64,000 nt of DNA from Dyadobacter sp. CECT 9275. GTDB lineage: Bacteria; Bacteroidota; Bacteroidia; Cytophagales; Spirosomataceae. The position numbers were made by a program, and so were the translations under genes. Shown here in pieces: positions 2,200 through 64,000 of this stretch. Position 1 is the first letter of the stretch; each line of letters begins with the position of its first letter. The notes beneath the pieces are model-generated. The model saw only the letters and a list, made by a program, of their open reading frames with translations. It did not search any database and was not told the origin of the DNA. The stretch covers positions 965,001 through 1,029,000 of the forward strand of contig NZ_CAJRAF010000001.1 in assembly GCF_907164905.1 (NCBI RefSeq), read 5' to 3'.

Positions 2200-3051
2200 T
2201 TAGGTTAAATGATACACTAATAAAGGTATGTGCGTGTGCACGATCAGTTTTTTAGTCAGTCCCGGATTGATCAGAAACTCCTCAATGAAGGATCTTTCCC
2301 GTGCGGAAACAACCAGCAGGTCTGCACCGATTTCATCACAATAAGCTTCTATCCCGTCAATTACGTGTAGCGCTTCCCGGCTCACAAACGCGTCATCAGA
2401 AATATTAAATTCAGCCTTTAATTCTGCCATATACTGGTGATCCGGTTGTATGTCCGGTTGGGTACGGCTGTGGACTTTCAGGAATTTAACGCTGGATCCC
2501 AGTTGGCTGGTGAAAGGCAGTAACTCATGGAGGATATTATTCTCCGCATATTCCAGCTGCGTTGCATATACTGTGCTGGCAAATGAGGTTGGCTTGTTTT
2601 GAGGCGGAATAACCAGTACCGGGCAGGAGGCATGCAGGGCAATATCGGTTGCTGAACTTCCAATCAATTTATCGAGAAAACCTCCTTCTCCCGTTCTGCC
2701 CAGGATGATCAGGTCGGGTGTGTGATCGGCATACGCCTGTTTGACCGCCGGTTTGATACCACCCGGATACCAGAGAGCAGTGGACCGGTACCCTTCTGCC
2801 ACCAGTTTGCGTACGTATTCTTCGAGCCGCTCCTGAAATTCCTGTTGTAATTCGTTTGAAAGTGATAAAAGATCCGGAGAGCCAATCCCGGGCAAAACAT
2901 TACCAGTGGTGAGGTTAACATCGGCAATGTAGGGCTCGTACGCGTGTAAAACCAGAAGTTCACTCTGATATTTATCTGCGATGATTTTGGCGGCGGCTAT
3001 CACCTTATCCGCATTTTCGGAAAAGTCTATCGGGATTAGTATTTTTTTCAT
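2200..3051 (-). CDS. Tandem-domain universal stress protein (UspA family)
   Basis: 283 residues made of two Usp domains in tandem. The first (1-150) starts MKKILIPIDFSENAD and carries the complete ATP-binding signature G-2x-G-9x-G-S at residues 118-132, ending in CPVLVIPP. The second (about 155-283) keeps the fold pattern (LLVVSARERSFIEEFL, then IPLLVYHLT) but has lost the glycine motif, so only the first domain is expected to bind nucleotide. It is the first gene of a likely two-gene unit with corA. The upstream divergent region contains a striking palindrome at 3138-3164. The role in stress adaptation is family knowledge; its trigger is unknown. Confidence 0.92.
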   Translation of the reverse strand: MKKILIPIDFSENADKVIAAAKIIADKYQSELLVLHAYEPYIADVNLTTGNVLPGIGSPDLLSLSNELQQEFQERLEEYVRKLVAEGYRSTALWYPGGIKPAVKQAYADHTPDLIILGRTGEGGFLDKLIGSSATDIALHASCPVLVIPPQNKPTSFASTVYATQLEYAENNILHELLPFTSQLGSSVKFLKVHSRTQPDIQPDHQYMAELKAEFNISDDAFVSREALHVIDGIEAYCDEIGADLLVVSARERSFIEEFLINPGLTKKLIVHTHIPLLVYHLT

Positions 3052-57840: not shown

Positions 57841-60801
57841 TCATCTGGAAACCATGTCCAGCCTGTCCATTGAGGTGACCTCAATGGATAAAAACCCAAA
57901 CTCATTTACAACAGTTCCTTTAATGCGGTAGAGGCCACGGCCGGAAAATTTATACCGCACAGCAACCGGCGGAAAATGAACGGTGTCAAGAAACTGGCCT
58001 TCTATATCAATAAAAGTGCCAAATTGCATGGTTTCTCCTTTTGATGTGCGCGTGTTCTTCACGGTTATCATGTACCCATATACTACTACTGGCTGGTCAA
58101 TGTACAGATGAAGGTTACTGGCTACGGTACTGGAGGGTATAGGATATTTTGAAAGTTCAAACGGGCTGCAAAGTGGAAATCCCAGGAGTTCGATCTGATC
58201 ATAGGCGTCGTCCACAGGCGAAGTGTGGAAGACCGGCAGCTCAAAGTCTTTTACTTCTGTGTGGAATAACCGTTTCTGGGGTGCCTTCATCGTTTTGTTG
58301 AGCCAGAAGTGGGCTTTCCAGAGCAAAGTTTTTTTATCAATACCGGTAAACCTGAATGCATCGATCCGGATCAGAATGGTGAGCTGCTCAATCGATATGG
58401 CAACACGGTCCAGGAAGTTATTCAGTGACGTGAATTCACCTTCCTGCTGACGAGCCGCTAGAATTTTAGCAATGGTTTTTTCTTCGATCTCGTTTAGGAA
58501 CTGCATTCCCAGATAAATGTCTTTTCCTTTAATAATCGTCTGGGCCTCGCTGTGGTTGATGCAGGGCGCGAAAATATTTCCTCCCAGCATTCTGGCCTCA
58601 TGTACGTATAACTCAGGGGCGTAAAAACCTCCACCGTTATTCAGAACCGCAACCATGTACTCCAGCGGGTAATAGGCTTTTAAGAAAAGAGTCTGGTAAC
58701 TTTCAATGGCATAGGAAGCTGAATGCCCCTTGGCGAAAGCATACCCTGCAAAGCTGGCTATCTGGTTCCAGATAGCCAGTGCCGTTTTTTTTTCGTATCC
58801 CCTGCTTGCACAGTTTATGAAATACTTGGCTTTGACCTGCTCGAACTCGTCGCGGCCACGGAATTTTCCGCTCATTCCGCGCCTGATCACATCTGCTTCT
58901 CCCAATGTTAGTCCGGCAAAATAATGGGCGACTTTAATGACGTCTTCCTGATATACCATAATGCCATAGGTTTCCCGCATCAGTTTCAGCAGAATCGGAT
59001 GGGCGTCTTTCATTCTTTCAGGATTCTGATGCCGTAATATATATTCGCGCATCATACCGCTTTTGGCTACGCCGGGCCTGATGATGGAGCTTGCAGCAAC
59101 CAGGCCCAGGTAGTTGTCCACTTCCAGTTTTTTGAGCAGCATACGCATGGCAGGTGATTCCACATAAAAGCAGCCAATACACTGCGCTTGTTTAATGAGC
59201 TCATTGATCTTGTGGTCGGCCTTGAATTTTTTTACATCGTCAATATCAATCGCGGGCTCATCCGGCCTGTTGTACCGGATGATTTCCAGCGTCTCCTTTA
59301 TTTTTGCCAAACCCCTCTGGCCCAGTATATCATATTTGTTAAGACCTACATCTTCCGCAATAACCATATCAAATTGAGTGGTAGGGAAACCTTTCGGAGG
59401 GAGATCCGTCGCTGTGAAGTAATTGATGGGCCGTTCGGAAATGAGGATACCGCCGGCATGAATGCTGAGATGATTGGGCTGGTTATTTTCCTGTAAATAC
59501 CCGGCATATTTGATCACCAGACCTGATAACTGGTCCAGCTTCTTTGGGTCATACTTCCCGTCACTCAGCGCATCAATTTCGTAAGCAGGCAAGCCAAATA
59601 CCTTACCCAGCTCCCTCACTGCCGCACTGTGCTGGAATGTACTATAAGTAGCCAGAAGAGCTACCTGGCCGTTTGTGCCAAATTTGTCAAAAATATACCT
59701 GGTAACATCTTCCCTGTCCCGCCAGGAGAAATCAATATCAAAATCCGGCGGGTTTTTCCGGTGCAGATTCATGAACCGTTCGAAATACAGATCGAGTTCT
59801 ATGGGGTCAACATTGGTGATATTCAGCAGATAGGCCACAATACTGTTTGCGCCGCTTCCTCGCCCCACATAGTAGTACCCTTGCCGGCGTGCGTACTCTA
59901 CAATGTCGTGGTTGACGAGAAAAAAAGGGATATAGTTTTGTTTTTCGATCAGGTCAAGTTCCGTTCCGATCCTGTCGAAAACCGCATCAGTAACCGCATC
60001 GCCATAACGCCGCCCGATACCCTGGTAACTCAGCTGCCGGATGCGGTCGTAGTCTTCTTTCTTACTTTTGGTGAACACCTGCAGATTCTGGTGCTGTCTG
60101 TCATCCCCAAAGCTGAAATGAATATTACATTCATCTGTGAGCTTATTAGTATTTGAGAGTATAGTACCGAAGTTTTTAAAATGATTTTCCAGTATTTCCT
60201 GCGGTAGTATCTGTTCTGTTTCTTCCGCCGTGTCAAAAGTGCTTAACTTACTGAGCATTGTATTTTCATCAACAGCCCTCAATAACCGGTGGGTATTAAA
60301 GTCTTTCTTATTACGAAAACTCACTGGCTGCATGATAACAAGTTTGTCTTCCATTTTGGCTAGAGGGGAAAAGCGGGCTCTGCTAAGGTCCTTTACCGAG
60401 ATACCTATGTACTCATCAGGGCGGAACCCGGTTTTGCGGGTTGCCGCTAATTTCTCGATAGGGTAAATAAAAATGACGTTTTCAAGGAAAGGAGCCTGGT
60501 CCGGGAAGTCTGTTTTTTCGTGCAGATGTTTTGATAAGTATGCATTTAATGCCTGAAACCCCATATTGTTCTTTGCCAGGCCTACGTATTGCTGCCGGAT
60601 GCCATTACGAAAATCGATGCCAACAATGGGCTTTACCCCATATTTAGAAGAAGTTCTTATAAAATTCAGGCAGCCGGATGTATTGTTGATGTCCGTCAGG
60701 GCCGCGCAGTTGTATCCGTTTTGCATGCTGAGCTGGAGCAGTTGCTCCTCCGGGATCATTCCGTAGCGGAGGCTGAAATATGAGTGGCAGTTGAGTAACA
60801 T
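57841..60801 (-). CDS. Short DnaE-type DNA polymerase III alpha subunit (error-prone-type)
   Basis: 986 residues versus about 1160 for replicative DnaE. PHP domain (1-200) starts LLNCHSYFSLRYGMIPEEQL; the canonical first metal His (HxH) is Asn4 here, so the PHP site looks incomplete. Palm: GRGSGANSIVAYLLNITNVD (313-332) and PPDFDIDFSWRDRED with catalytic Asp355 and Asp357; the third Asp is in KYDILGQRGLAKI. Fingers: FVESPAMRMLLKKLEV and GIMVYQEDVIKVAHYFAG. An OB fold near 910-975 ends the protein; the tau-binding C-terminal domain is absent. It follows the Y-family polymerase by 95 nt, the DnaE2/ImuC pattern. Confidence 0.9.
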   Translation of the reverse strand: MLLNCHSYFSLRYGMIPEEQLLQLSMQNGYNCAALTDINNTSGCLNFIRTSSKYGVKPIVGIDFRNGIRQQYVGLAKNNMGFQALNAYLSKHLHEKTDFPDQAPFLENVIFIYPIEKLAATRKTGFRPDEYIGISVKDLSRARFSPLAKMEDKLVIMQPVSFRNKKDFNTHRLLRAVDENTMLSKLSTFDTAEETEQILPQEILENHFKNFGTILSNTNKLTDECNIHFSFGDDRQHQNLQVFTKSKKEDYDRIRQLSYQGIGRRYGDAVTDAVFDRIGTELDLIEKQNYIPFFLVNHDIVEYARRQGYYYVGRGSGANSIVAYLLNITNVDPIELDLYFERFMNLHRKNPPDFDIDFSWRDREDVTRYIFDKFGTNGQVALLATYSTFQHSAAVRELGKVFGLPAYEIDALSDGKYDPKKLDQLSGLVIKYAGYLQENNQPNHLSIHAGGILISERPINYFTATDLPPKGFPTTQFDMVIAEDVGLNKYDILGQRGLAKIKETLEIIRYNRPDEPAIDIDDVKKFKADHKINELIKQAQCIGCFYVESPAMRMLLKKLEVDNYLGLVAASSIIRPGVAKSGMMREYILRHQNPERMKDAHPILLKLMRETYGIMVYQEDVIKVAHYFAGLTLGEADVIRRGMSGKFRGRDEFEQVKAKYFINCASRGYEKKTALAIWNQIASFAGYAFAKGHSASYAIESYQTLFLKAYYPLEYMVAVLNNGGGFYAPELYVHEARMLGGNIFAPCINHSEAQTIIKGKDIYLGMQFLNEIEEKTIAKILAARQQEGEFTSLNNFLDRVAISIEQLTILIRIDAFRFTGIDKKTLLWKAHFWLNKTMKAPQKRLFHTEVKDFELPVFHTSPVDDAYDQIELLGFPLCSPFELSKYPIPSSTVASNLHLYIDQPVVVYGYMITVKNTRTSKGETMQFGTFIDIEGQFLDTVHFPPVAVRYKFSGRGLYRIKGTVVNEFGFLSIEVTSMDRLDMVSR

Positions 60802-60896: not shown

Positions 60897-62126
60897 TTAA
60901 GCATTCCGGTGCGCGGGAATAATCGGAGGTTCTCCGTTAAAGGGGTTTCCCATACTTGCTATATTGGGAATTCCCAAAGTGGTACCCCAGCTCAGAATGG
61001 AATTTCCACGCTTGTCTGTCCCGTAACGGTTCCGGATATAATCCATCGCCTGATAGAGGTTCAGCCTTTCTTCCGAGTCGTCGAACAGATTGATCTGGTA
61101 ATTGCCGGTAACCAGGTCGCTGAAATTTACCCCCACAAGCCTCACCATCATCCGGCGGTTGTAAAGCTGGTCGAAGAGCCGTTCAACCTGAGGGATCAGG
61201 ATGTGATCGGCAGAGGTGTAAGGTATTTTTAATTGGCGGGAAAAAGTATTAAAATCGGAATAACGGATCTTGACAGAGATGCAGGATGTCAGCTTGTTCC
61301 CTGTCCTGAGCTGGTAAGCCAGGTTTTCGGCCATTGCCCTGATCATTTCACGCATGCGGTGCACGTCGCCAGTGTCCTTTCCAAACGTCCGTTCGTTGGA
61401 GATAGACTTGCGCTCATGAAAAGGGATAATGGGGGAGTCGTCTCTGCCGTTCGCTTTGTTCCATAGCACAATACCATTTTTGCCTAAAACCTTGCCCATC
61501 ATCTCCATGGGCATGTCCTGGATGGTCTTCACATACTTTATTCCCAGGTTATAAAGCAGCTGGCTGGTTTTGTCACCCACCATCGGTATTTTCTGGACGG
61601 GCATAGGAGCCAGGAAAGCTTTTTCTTCGCCTTGTATGATCCTTTTTTCGTTGTCTGGTTTTGCTTCCCCGGTAGCCACCTTTGAAACCAGCTTGTTGAC
61701 AGACAGGCCATAGGAAATAGGCAATCCGGTCTCGCGCTTGATGCGCTGCCGGAGCTCGGAAGCCATGAGCTGACAATTGAAAAACTTATCCATGCCTGAT
61801 AAATCGGCATAAAATTCGTCAATGCTTGCTTTTTCAAAAACAGGCACACTTTCCCGGATAATCTCGGTAACATTCTTTGATTCCTTGGAATAGACACCCG
61901 CTTCCCCGCGTATCACAACGGCCTCGGGGCAAAGGTTACGCGCCATTTTCATAGGCATACCCGAATGAACCCCGTAACCTCGGGTTTCATAGCTGCAGGC
62001 TGCCACTACACCACGGTCACCTACGCCGCCAACCAGAACGGGCTTCCCGTTAAGAAGAGGGTTATTCTTTCGCTCAACTGATACAAAAAAGGTGTCCAGG
62101 TCAAAATGCAATATGGTTCTGTCCAT
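60897..62126 (-). CDS. Y-family DNA polymerase (DinB/UmuC type)
   Basis: 409 residues with the complete Y-family catalytic centre: ILHFDLDTFFVSVE (Asp9), then SYETRGYGVHSGMP, and ASIDEFYADLS (Asp103, Glu104). Helix-hairpin-helix thumb (PMVGDKTSQLLYNLGI) and little finger follow. A beta-clamp-binding motif QINLF lies at 344-348, with a 60-residue tail after it instead of ending the protein. Because the active site is intact, it differs from the inactive ImuB of Proteobacteria. It heads the minus-strand cassette with DnaE and starts 161 bp from a LexA-like repressor gene. The promoter is overlapped by operators. Confidence 0.93.
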   Translation of the reverse strand: MDRTILHFDLDTFFVSVERKNNPLLNGKPVLVGGVGDRGVVAACSYETRGYGVHSGMPMKMARNLCPEAVVIRGEAGVYSKESKNVTEIIRESVPVFEKASIDEFYADLSGMDKFFNCQLMASELRQRIKRETGLPISYGLSVNKLVSKVATGEAKPDNEKRIIQGEEKAFLAPMPVQKIPMVGDKTSQLLYNLGIKYVKTIQDMPMEMMGKVLGKNGIVLWNKANGRDDSPIIPFHERKSISNERTFGKDTGDVHRMREMIRAMAENLAYQLRTGNKLTSCISVKIRYSDFNTFSRQLKIPYTSADHILIPQVERLFDQLYNRRMMVRLVGVNFSDLVTGNYQINLFDDSEERLNLYQAMDYIRNRYGTDKRGNSILSWGTTLGIPNIASMGNPFNGEPPIIPAHRNA

Positions 62127-62130
62127 GGCG

Positions 62131-62206
62131 ATTTGGAATTTTTACAAATTTATGGATTTATTCCAAATGTATGGAGAATATCCATGAGTTGCCAAGGATT
62201 TATTCC
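62131..62206. promoter_or_regulatory. Operator array GGA-N5-TCC between polymerase cassette and LexA-like gene
   Basis: Three full GGA-N5-TCC palindromes at 62154-62164, 62173-62183 and 62196-62206, plus a degenerate one at 62135-62145 (GGA-N5-TAC). Spacings between left ends are 19, 19 and 23 bp. The sites at 62154 and 62196 are an identical 14-nt direct repeat (GGATTTATTCCAAA) 42 bp apart. The middle site extends to ATGGA-N5-TCCAT. A wider inverted pair ATTTGGAAT (62131-62139) / ATTCCAAAT (62160-62168) is also present. Best reading: the binding sites of the neighbouring S24 repressor. Confidence 0.75.
62164..62195 (-). promoter_or_regulatory. Predicted promoter of the Y-polymerase/DnaE operon
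   Basis: Minus-strand TACATTTG (62164-62171) fits the -7 box, with TTG (62193-62195) 21 nt upstream. It overlaps the operators at 62154 and 62173 and abuts the one at 62196, so a bound repressor would occlude it. Confidence 0.65.
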
Positions 62207-62216
62207 AAAAAAAATG

Positions 62217-62224
62217 TAGGTTTG
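62217..62224 (+). promoter_or_regulatory. Predicted -7 element of the LexA-like gene
   Basis: TAGGTTTG matches TAnnTTTG, 63 nt before the ATG. A TTG at 62189-62191 lies 25 nt upstream (slightly long). The operator at 62196-62206 falls between the two, which suggests autorepression. Confidence 0.5.
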
Positions 62225-62287
62225 TTGTATTGAAGAATTTGGCACAGATTATTTTCTATAATTGATGACCAGTTAAACTCATCGTAT

Positions 62288-63049
62288 ATGCCGATCGAAG
62301 CAGAATTCAAGCGTTTCAAACAAATCAGAGAGGAGCTAAATTTCACGCAGTCCGCTTTTGCTGAGCAGATTGGAGCAGGCGTTACAACAGCTGACATAGA
62401 ACGAGGGCGTACCAGAATACCCGGGCAGGTGGTGAAGGAACTTTTAAAGCAGTACAATATCAATCCGCTGTGGCTGTTCGGAGAGAGTGAGCAGAAATAT
62501 CTGAATCCAGGGAAAGTATCGACAGGGCCTAGCGTTATTACGATTGACAACACCGGCAAAGAGAATATTGTGCTGGTAAGTGCCAAGGCGGCGGCCGGAT
62601 ACCCGCATAATATCGGCGATGCCCGGTGGTTTGAATCTCTCCCCGCGTTTACGATCCCGTTACCGGAATACCGGAATGCATCCTTCAGAGGATTTCAGGT
62701 GGATGGTGATAGTATGATGCCTGTATTACATTCGGGGGAATGGATTGTGAGCAGGGCCGTTGACGACTGGGAGAACCTCAGTGCCAAGCGTATGTATGTG
62801 ATTATCACTGCGGATAGTATTTTGGTTAAAAAAATAAGAAAGGACAAAGGAAGTACCTACATAAATCTTATTTCAATTAACCCGGAATATGATCCTATCC
62901 GTCTGGATCGCAGTGAGATCCGCGAATTATGGCAGGTGAACAGTAAGATTACTTTTGATCTGGAAGCCGACATGCAGGATGTATCCTTGCAAAACATACA
63001 TCAGCAAATGAAGGAATTAAAAGAGGAAGTGCGGAAATTGGCGAGATAA
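62288..63049 (+). CDS. LexA/CI-like self-cleaving repressor (XRE HTH + S24 peptidase)
   Basis: 253 residues. N-terminal HTH_3-type domain (RFKQIREELNFTQSAFAEQI, then GAGVTTADIERGRTRIPG) with a following helix and WLFGE. C-terminal S24 peptidase: cleavage site Ala103-Gly104 (SAKAAAGYPHN), nucleophile Ser142 (VDGDSMMPVLHSGEW) and general base Lys181 (ADSILVKKIRKD). The tail ends in a helical segment (HQQMKELKEEVRKLAR). By family, RecA filaments on damaged DNA should trigger cleavage and derepression. It diverges from the Y-polymerase gene over an array of palindromes. Phage origin is possible, but no other phage gene is present. Confidence 0.92.
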   Translation: MPIEAEFKRFKQIREELNFTQSAFAEQIGAGVTTADIERGRTRIPGQVVKELLKQYNINPLWLFGESEQKYLNPGKVSTGPSVITIDNTGKENIVLVSAKAAAGYPHNIGDARWFESLPAFTIPLPEYRNASFRGFQVDGDSMMPVLHSGEWIVSRAVDDWENLSAKRMYVIITADSILVKKIRKDKGSTYINLISINPEYDPIRLDRSEIRELWQVNSKITFDLEADMQDVSLQNIHQQMKELKEEVRKLAR

Positions 63050-63071: not shown

Positions 63072-63611
63072 TTAGGCATAGGGATTCTGTTTGCCTGCGA
63101 TGAGCTTGGATTTCAGCTCCTGCAGCTCCTCCCATTTTCCAAACCTGGCCAGGCTGGCCTGCGTAGGCCACGAGCTCGGGTCCTGTATCTGGAAGCGCGG
63201 TCCCGCATTTTTCAGTATGGAGGTTATCCGGATGGGTGAAGTATCCGCAAGTTTGGTATAGGTATAAATCCCCTCCTTGTTAAGGAGTTCTTCTATTTTT
63301 GGACCAATTCCTTCTATTACTTTCAGGTCATCCGATTTGATATCTACCGGTTCGGGCTTTGGGTACACTGTTTTGGCTACATGGCCCACTGCCGGAGGCC
63401 TTACCGTAGTGGCAGGAAGCTTGATATGTAACTCCTTACAGGCTTTCAGCTCTTCCCTTTTGGAAGTAATTTCCTCTTTAATTCTTCTGATTTTTATAAA
63501 CAGCACAAGCCTCGAAAGCAGATATCCTGCTACGGATACCAGGATAAGAACAGCGGCTATTTCAATTATAGCGACCCATTGTGGTGGCAGGCTGGTTTGA
63601 AAAAGTGCCAT
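63072..63611 (-). CDS. Membrane-anchored helix-hairpin-helix protein
   Basis: 179 residues. A single membrane helix (WVAIIEIAAVLILVSVAGYL, 12-31), a coiled-coil-like basic helix (IKIRRIKEEITSKREELKA), a proline-rich linker and a C-terminal domain starting DDLKVIEGIGPKIEELLNKE, followed by SWPTQASLARFGKWEELQEL. This is the HhH-type unit often fused to respiratory or ribosomal proteins and also found alone in Bacteroidota; its ligand is uncertain. The LexA-like gene converges on it from the left, 22 nt away. A homologous gene precedes it on the same strand (41-bp gap). Confidence 0.78.
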   Translation of the reverse strand: MALFQTSLPPQWVAIIEIAAVLILVSVAGYLLSRLVLFIKIRRIKEEITSKREELKACKELHIKLPATTVRPPAVGHVAKTVYPKPEPVDIKSDDLKVIEGIGPKIEELLNKEGIYTYTKLADTSPIRITSILKNAGPRFQIQDPSSWPTQASLARFGKWEELQELKSKLIAGKQNPYA

Positions 63612-63652: not shown

Positions 63653-64000
63653 TCAGGATTTTATATTTTTAAGGAGTTCTTCCTGTAATTCGCGGAGATC
63701 GTCCCACTTATTAGCGGCGGCAAGTCCTGCCTGCTGCTGCCACATGACTATATCCCTTATTTGATAATTTTCATTCCATTTGGAAAGTTCCTGTTTCAAA
63801 CGCAGCGGCTGAAAGTGGTGCAGCTGCCGGTAGGTATAAATACCGGTTTGGTTCAATTGCTGCTGATGCTCTTCCTGTATACCGTTTATTTTTGTGAGGT
63901 CATCTTTTTCAATCGGCAGATGAGGTTCCGCAGGCAGGGGCTCACTGCTCGTTTCGCCTGTATCTCTGAGCATGTCGTTCTGGAACTTGGACCTTATATT
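63653..64000 (-). CDS. Second helix-hairpin-helix-type protein, 5' part missing (window edge)
   Basis: The frame stays open to the last base, so the N-terminus lies outside the window; an internal ATG at 63973 is a possible start giving 106 residues. The visible part repeats the domain of its neighbour: EKDDLTKINGIQEEHQQQLN, then QTGIYTYRQLHHF, IRDIVMWQQQAGLAAANKWD, then DLRELQEELLKNIKS. The GIG of the hairpin is changed to GIQ, so nucleic-acid contact may be lost. Probably a paralogue of 63072-63611 in the same operon. Confidence 0.72.
   Translation of the reverse strand, partial: NIRSKFQNDMLRDTGETSSEPLPAEPHLPIEKDDLTKINGIQEEHQQQLNQTGIYTYRQLHHFQPLRLKQELSKWNENYQIRDIVMWQQQAGLAAANKWDDLRELQEELLKNIKS

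Follow-up and report, generated by a model that had tools for sequence, protein, structure and literature searches.

What do the GGA-N5-TCC palindromes do that crowd the short gap between a repressor gene and a divergent polymerase gene in Dyadobacter sp. CECT 9275? The window (that is, the whole stretch of 64,000 nucleotides analysed) comes from a genome of 7.2 Mb with five named relatives at 72–75% identity, which are Dyadobacter (Spirosomataceae, Cytophagales), a genus formerly filed in Cytophagaceae. A first-pass annotation of the window had described three exact dyads and a one-base variant, an identical direct repeat, a polymerase promoter of the form TTG-N21-TACATTTG on the minus strand and an overlap of the dyads with both divergent promoters. 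All of this is confirmed at the following positions:

57841..60801, minus strand: DnaE-like polymerase III alpha, 986 aa (Pfam DNA_pol3_alpha, finger, HHH_6 and PHP)
60897..62126, minus strand: Y-family polymerase (DinB-like), 409 aa (Pfam IMS and IMS_C; NCBIfam DNA polymerase IV)
62127..62287: the 161-bp gap, which holds O1 to O4
62135..62145: O4, imperfect operator GGAATTTTTAC (TAC for TCC), 19 bp from O1
62145..62152, minus strand: possible second polymerase -7 box TAAATTTG, just downstream of O1
62154..62164: O1, operator GGATTTATTCC, abutting the polymerase -7 box; GGA and TCC invariant in 48/48 genomes
62164..62171, minus strand: polymerase -7 box TACATTTG, part of TTG-N21-TACATTTG
62173..62183: O2, operator GGAGAATATCC, between the -33 and -7 elements of the polymerase promoter and separated from the -7 box by 1 nt
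62196..62206: O3, operator GGATTTATTCC, which precedes the -7 box of the repressor gene and lies at the polymerase promoter's upstream edge
62217..62224, plus strand: repressor-gene -7 box TAGGTTTG, downstream of O3
62288..63049, plus strand: S24 repressor with a CI-type HTH, 253 aa (Pfam HTH_3 and Peptidase_S24; tree, residues and fold)

From start to start, O4, O1, O2 and O3 follow one another at 19, 19 and 23 bp, 72 bp in total, and the 14-nt repeat GGATTTATTCCAAA is exact at 62154 and 62196. O1 and O2 thus flank the polymerase -7 box and O3 lies upstream of that of the repressor gene. A second TAnnTTTG after O1 may provide the polymerase genes with two overlapping starts. The Y-polymerase scores above the cut-off of one NCBIfam DNA polymerase IV model (PRK02406), and the DnaE-like gene is the next one on its strand in the window.

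The GGA-N5-TCC motif by itself is not rare in the window. An expectation of one match in 4 kb by chance, as first proposed, understates its frequency, since the 64 kb contain 26 matches, about one per 2.5 kb, and 100 dinucleotide shuffles of the window gave a mean of 17.0 (sd 4.2, largest 26). Three dyads within 161 bp at the shuffle density have a probability of about 1.3e-5, before look-elsewhere correction. The clustering is not due to chance, in agreement with the first-pass annotation, and the decisive test is conservation.

Conservation in related cassettes was the test that the annotation itself had set. Exact O1, O2 and O3, together with the divergent Y-polymerase, are kept in all 48 Dyadobacter genomes, with 19 bp from O1 to O2; from O2 to O3 it is 22 bp in 32 genomes and 23 bp in the other 16. 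Across these genomes the dyad columns of O1 and O2 are invariant and the five spacer bases of O2 reach only 0.36–0.88 bits; the flanks of the region carry 0.06–0.63 bits on the polymerase side and 0.34–0.75 bits beyond O2. The O1–O2 interval with the -7 box is also conserved (0.90–2.00 bits). TAnnTTTG stands 1 nt after O2 in 46/48 genomes on the polymerase side and downstream of O3 in 48/48, at a distance of 9–11 nt in 45 of them, and the polymerase TTG (-33) showed no visible conservation in the 9 of 48 alignment rows viewed. The imperfect O4 is fixed too: its GGA half is intact and exactly 19 bp from O1 in every genome, and its second half reads TAC in 45, TGC in two, TTC in one and TCC in none. 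Because O4 is nearly invariant with most of its spacer included, its conservation suggests a use besides repressor binding, for example in translation of the polymerase mRNA. The operator array is therefore real and conserved, and by its sequence it looks like an array for the adjacent S24 repressor, as had been proposed.

Is this a new kind of operator? The first-pass annotation was aware of no SOS box of this type for the phylum and suggested a new LexA-like operator. Neither part stands, because GGA-N5-TCC was published in 2021 by Sanchez-Osuna et al. (PMC8565304) as the SOS box of a non-canonical LexA of Bacteroidetes; the array is of this published kind. According to that work, the box lies upstream of dinB, often with dnaE; its binding by an S24/CI-type regulator was demonstrated by EMSA and site mutagenesis, and mitomycin C induces predicted targets of the regulator. 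The locus studied here shares with this GGA group the operator, the CI-type HTH plus S24 domain, the Ala-Gly bond, the Ser-Lys dyad, a dinB-dnaE target, operators at the regulator's own gene and several sites per promoter (PMC8565304). It differs in its host, a member of the Cytophagales (Spirosomataceae), since the published group is found mainly in Flavobacteriaceae and the Cytophagaceae homologs were left unassigned owing to their divergence (PMC8565304). "Dyadobacter" and "sRNA" are absent from the main text of that paper. In our literature search the GGA-N5-TCC phrase occurred in no other paper, no paper joined Dyadobacter with "SOS response", and Dyadobacter and LexA appeared together, in the text covered, in a single dust-microbiome paper.

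Membership in the GGA group can be assessed from the protein. HTH_3 (30.4 bits) and Peptidase_S24 (42.6 bits) both score above the curated Pfam cut-offs, HTH_19 is also listed, and the LexA winged-helix domain PF01726 is absent from the repressor in a Pfam scan at E<=0.001. The structure model (mean pLDDT 66.5, which is modest) has an all-helical N-domain, whose fold match is P22 c2 (E 0.029), and a C-domain resembling LexA and lambda CI. An additional helix at the C-terminus is a trait of the GGA group; the model places a helix at 234–252, though with a mean pLDDT of about 45–53. The repressor is thus like canonical LexA in the fold of its S24 C-terminal domain, and presumably in RecA-triggered self-cleavage, and unlike it in having another operator and no LexA winged-helix domain by Pfam. 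Close homologs (E<=1e-30) were found in 49 of the 222 genomes of the family, 48 from Dyadobacter and one from another genus, which makes 2 of the family's 36 genera.

From a longer list of places, 29 new loci entered the analysis automatically and 20 more by choice. Outside Dyadobacter we read 52 homolog loci, plus both paralogs of the own genome. Twelve of the 52 are at 47–53% identity (the two named ones are Flavobacteriaceae), one (L089) belongs to the window's family and 39 are more distant. A W-flanked GGA-N5-TCC lies within 260 bp in 12/12 of the close loci and in 0/39 of the distant ones, of which 19 carry CTAA-N5-TTAG and 20 neither box; L089 carries a pair of GGA-N5-TCC sites at a distance of 19 bp, with no W flanks. 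No CTAA-N5-TTAG was found within 260 bp upstream of the window's repressor (L001) and seven other Dyadobacter rows. In a tree of 62 rows, eight of them Dyadobacter, all GGA-labelled rows fall on one side of a branch with support 100/99, present in 100% of 200 bootstrap trees, and Dyadobacter is sister to the Flavobacteriaceae-type rows. Save for conservative changes, Dyadobacter has the same HTH residues 33–44 as the 13 other GGA-type rows; six CTAA-side rows, both own paralogs included, differ from them at most of these positions. A103-G104, S142 and K181 are invariant in every row compared: the 48 from Dyadobacter, the 13 others of GGA type and the six on the CTAA side. Since the alignments do not include the published reference proteins WP_075324850.1 and WP_025606010.1, group membership rests on operator-labelled relatives. 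Judged by the features testable in silico, namely its operators, its place in the tree and the residues of its HTH and cleavage site, the repressor is a GGA-group non-canonical LexA. A Cytophagales genus hence joins the GGA group, near the part of the tree whose Cytophagaceae homologs had been left unassigned (PMC8565304). The non-canonical LexA with the CTAA-N5-TTAG operator has the same domain layout and controls error-prone polymerases among others (PMC8565304); the window's repressor is set apart from it by its operator, its HTH residues and the opposite side of the tree. Several Flavobacteriaceae-type loci have something other than a polymerase as divergent neighbour, which is, we assume, a COG4277-like radical-SAM gene.

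Taken together, the array is very likely the SOS operator region of a non-canonical LexA of the GGA-N5-TCC type, with binding, cleavage and induction deduced from sequence. In this model, dimers of the 62288–63049 protein would fill O1 to O3 and, weakly, O4. Dimers at O1 and O2 would cover the polymerase -7 box from both sides and a dimer at O3 the repressor promoter, so that dinB-dnaE and the repressor gene itself would be off. Upon DNA damage, RecA filaments would promote cleavage at A103-G104 by the S142/K181 dyad, which would free both divergent promoters, and autoregulation would then reset the system. In many Dyadobacter species the same repressor would also control a small RNA and a microprotein specific to the genus, through promoters built as operator, 18–19 bp from start to start, operator, 1–2 nt, TAnnTTTG. 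The recA gene of this genome, which has no GGA-N5-TCC box in the upstream stretch fetched, would lie outside its control.

Does the repressor have a regulon at all? It might instead be private to one polymerase cassette and control only itself and dinB-dnaE, as in the minimal systems of HdiR or UmuDAb (PMC8565304). The recA gene without an upstream box would fit this, and so would the distribution of strict WTGGAWNNNWTCCAW sites in the own genome. There are 27 of them, against 10 for the reversed pattern, and predicted ORFs contain 22; for two of the 22 (L166, L173) these are solely ORFs shorter than 90 aa. One of the other five is O1. The remaining four, however, form two pairs outside ORFs, and each pair precedes a 59-aa ORF, the two own-genome copies of the microprotein:

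L163:3056-3232, plus strand: microprotein copy behind two GGA-N5-TCC operators
L156:2825-3001, minus strand: microprotein copy behind two GGA-N5-TCC operators

Moreover, the arrangement TGGAN5TCC-N6..12-GGAN5TCC-N0..3-TAnnTTTG is found in 48/48 Dyadobacter genomes, its reversed control in 0/48, and it recurs at 23 places besides the repressor/polymerase and microprotein loci, all of which were retrieved. Both observations speak against a repressor without further targets, which we regard as improbable, even though 17 of the 48 genomes have neither the microprotein nor the RNA described below. Apart from these paired sites, L166:2867 and 3008 are single GGA-N5-TCC sites that do not have the two-operator/-7 layout; the ORF 82 and 223 bp downstream of them is, we presume, GyrB-like.

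The first candidate output of the SOS operator system is the microprotein of about 48–72 aa, with 31 loci in 28/48 Dyadobacter genomes (29 loci outside the own genome). With the number of first-look candidates scored per genome capped, relatives occur in 0/174 other genomes of the family and 0/391 sampled genomes of the phylum, and the database names that give an organism for them are all Dyadobacter. Two operators precede 30 of the 31 loci, the exception being L223 with one site; at 29 of these 30 the operators are 18–19 bp apart and TAnnTTTG follows 1–2 nt later, L237 having been seen separately. An alignment (A1) of 27 of the 31 loci, with L191, L198, L235 and L237 left out for an unclear start or an in-frame stop, gave a pN/pS of about 0.25 by a crude count over the 27 sequences, and pN was below pS in 95/95 pairs of at least 60% identity. 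This supports the view that the microprotein is coding and under purifying selection. Its predicted fold is beta-beta-beta-alpha (mean pLDDT 74.8, about 87 for residues 1–40), with no Pfam family and no significant fold match. At 20 of 30 loci the same gene lies upstream, and the copy of it that was tested is a BrxC-type bacilliredoxin. A partner ORF of about 127–135 aa overlaps four of the microprotein copies. At six places (L324, L326, L332, L333, L339 and L341), all in genomes without a detected microprotein, the operators are kept beside the bacilliredoxin gene (6/6) and the microprotein ORF is degenerate or gone. These operator-only places look like decayed copies of the microprotein locus.

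The second candidate output is an RNA. At 16 of the 23 additional places (among loci L319–L340) the promoter is followed by a core like AAATTGGGTTTTA(G/A)GGTTGTATA and then by a hairpin, and a seventeenth locus lies in the own genome:

L164, about 2858-2970, minus strand: RNA candidate upstream of tmRNA (L164 2233-2604, minus strand)

The candidate is thus present in at least 17 of the 48 genomes, a lower bound because the search pattern, which needs a T ahead of the first GGA, did not hit the own-genome locus. As the loci were found via promoter patterns, their promoters are present by construction, and the independent evidence comes from core and hairpin. The strict core pattern is matched by 11 of the 17 loci and the other six carry variants. 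Loci whose hairpins differ do not agree in the ORFs that can be drawn, and L164, L328 and L329 lack the core's ATG. The hairpin stems vary yet pair: 97.7% of cells are paired, and in 9 of the 13 pairs both partners have changed. Covariation is 0.638, compared with 0.285 (sd 0.029) for shuffled and at most 0.278 for slid alignments, figures that are favoured by taking the structure from one row and by the relatedness of the rows; the number of pair types is a less telling measure here. All four RNAs tested fold better than their shuffles (z -2.9 to -3.9). Nine of the 17 loci share one neighbourhood, three another and two another. No Rfam family matches the candidate, and a target search for it was negative. 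In our reading it is a small RNA that ends in an intrinsic terminator.

Microprotein or RNA was detected in 31 of the 48 genomes, both in 14 and neither in 17. We favour, with modest confidence, an SOS response whose recurrent outputs, besides the polymerases, would be a genus-specific beta-beta-beta-alpha microprotein of checkpoint type and a small RNA that acts in trans and consists of the core AAATTGGGTTTTARGGTTGTATAATG and a terminator, both of them under a two-operator/-7 promoter; the 17 genomes with neither output slightly lower the odds of this reading. YneA, SidA and SosA, which are SOS-induced small division inhibitors, and an SOS-linked sRNA of Klebsiella (PMC10907235) are likewise short products under SOS-type control, a likeness by description only. 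Unlike them, the Dyadobacter microprotein and RNA have no Pfam or Rfam family or significant fold match.

The locus extends the published system by its place in Dyadobacter, by an O4 that is imperfect and fixed, by the strictness of the promoter code and by the two candidate outputs, with regulation itself deduced. Because the promoter grammar (dyad, 18–19 bp, dyad, 1–2 nt, TAnnTTTG) is strict, targets can be read from sequence alone, and it yields two candidate outputs of the DNA-damage response, the microprotein and the small RNA. We did not find an earlier description of either as a target: neither appears in the passages of PMC8565304 that were covered, and among the papers listed in our search there was no SOS-linked small RNA of Bacteroidota. 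If the reading is true, Bacteroidota would possess a small RNA under SOS control and a microprotein of checkpoint type. The same layout was seen once elsewhere, at L335:2057-2910 (G082), where two operators and a -7 box stand 24 nt before a MYG1_exonuc-family gene, in one genome only.

Might another protein bind the dyads? The own genome encodes two HTH plus S24-like paralogs (G000:C2 and C4, the S24-like domain being below the Pfam cut-off), one of them beside ImuA/ImuB-like genes. Nevertheless, both paralogs are on the CTAA side of the tree, yet without a CTAA box, their HTH residues 33–44 are mostly different, and the stretch that separates the C2 paralog from its neighbour contains no GGA-N5-TCC, which makes binding by such a factor very unlikely. 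Hardly credible is a prophage-type repressor lying by chance beside the polymerases, with the dyads as phage operators: the CI-type HTH and a match to PHROG phrog_4 (transcriptional repressor; E 1.5e-23) point that way, but the cassette has the same divergent polymerase in 48/48 genomes of the genus and four neighbour proteins have no phage family in Pfam (two polymerases, one protein without a match and one with a weak DUF4332).

Beyond the repressor, the window encodes neighbouring short proteins at 63072-63611 and 63653-64000 (minus strand) whose C-terminal parts are similar by eye; the weak DUF4332 match of one of them is 21.2 bits, below the cut-off. A second mutagenesis cassette of the own genome, at L188:3-3826, is divergent from an S24-like paralog and comprises a Y-family ORF, the start of a DnaE-like ORF and also, we assume, an ImuA-like ORF; the gap between paralog and cassette contains neither GGA-N5-TCC nor CTAA-N5-TTAG. 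Another HTH/S24-like paralog lies at L187:2912-3745, beside what we take to be a MerR-like gene and a phytoene-desaturase-like gene.
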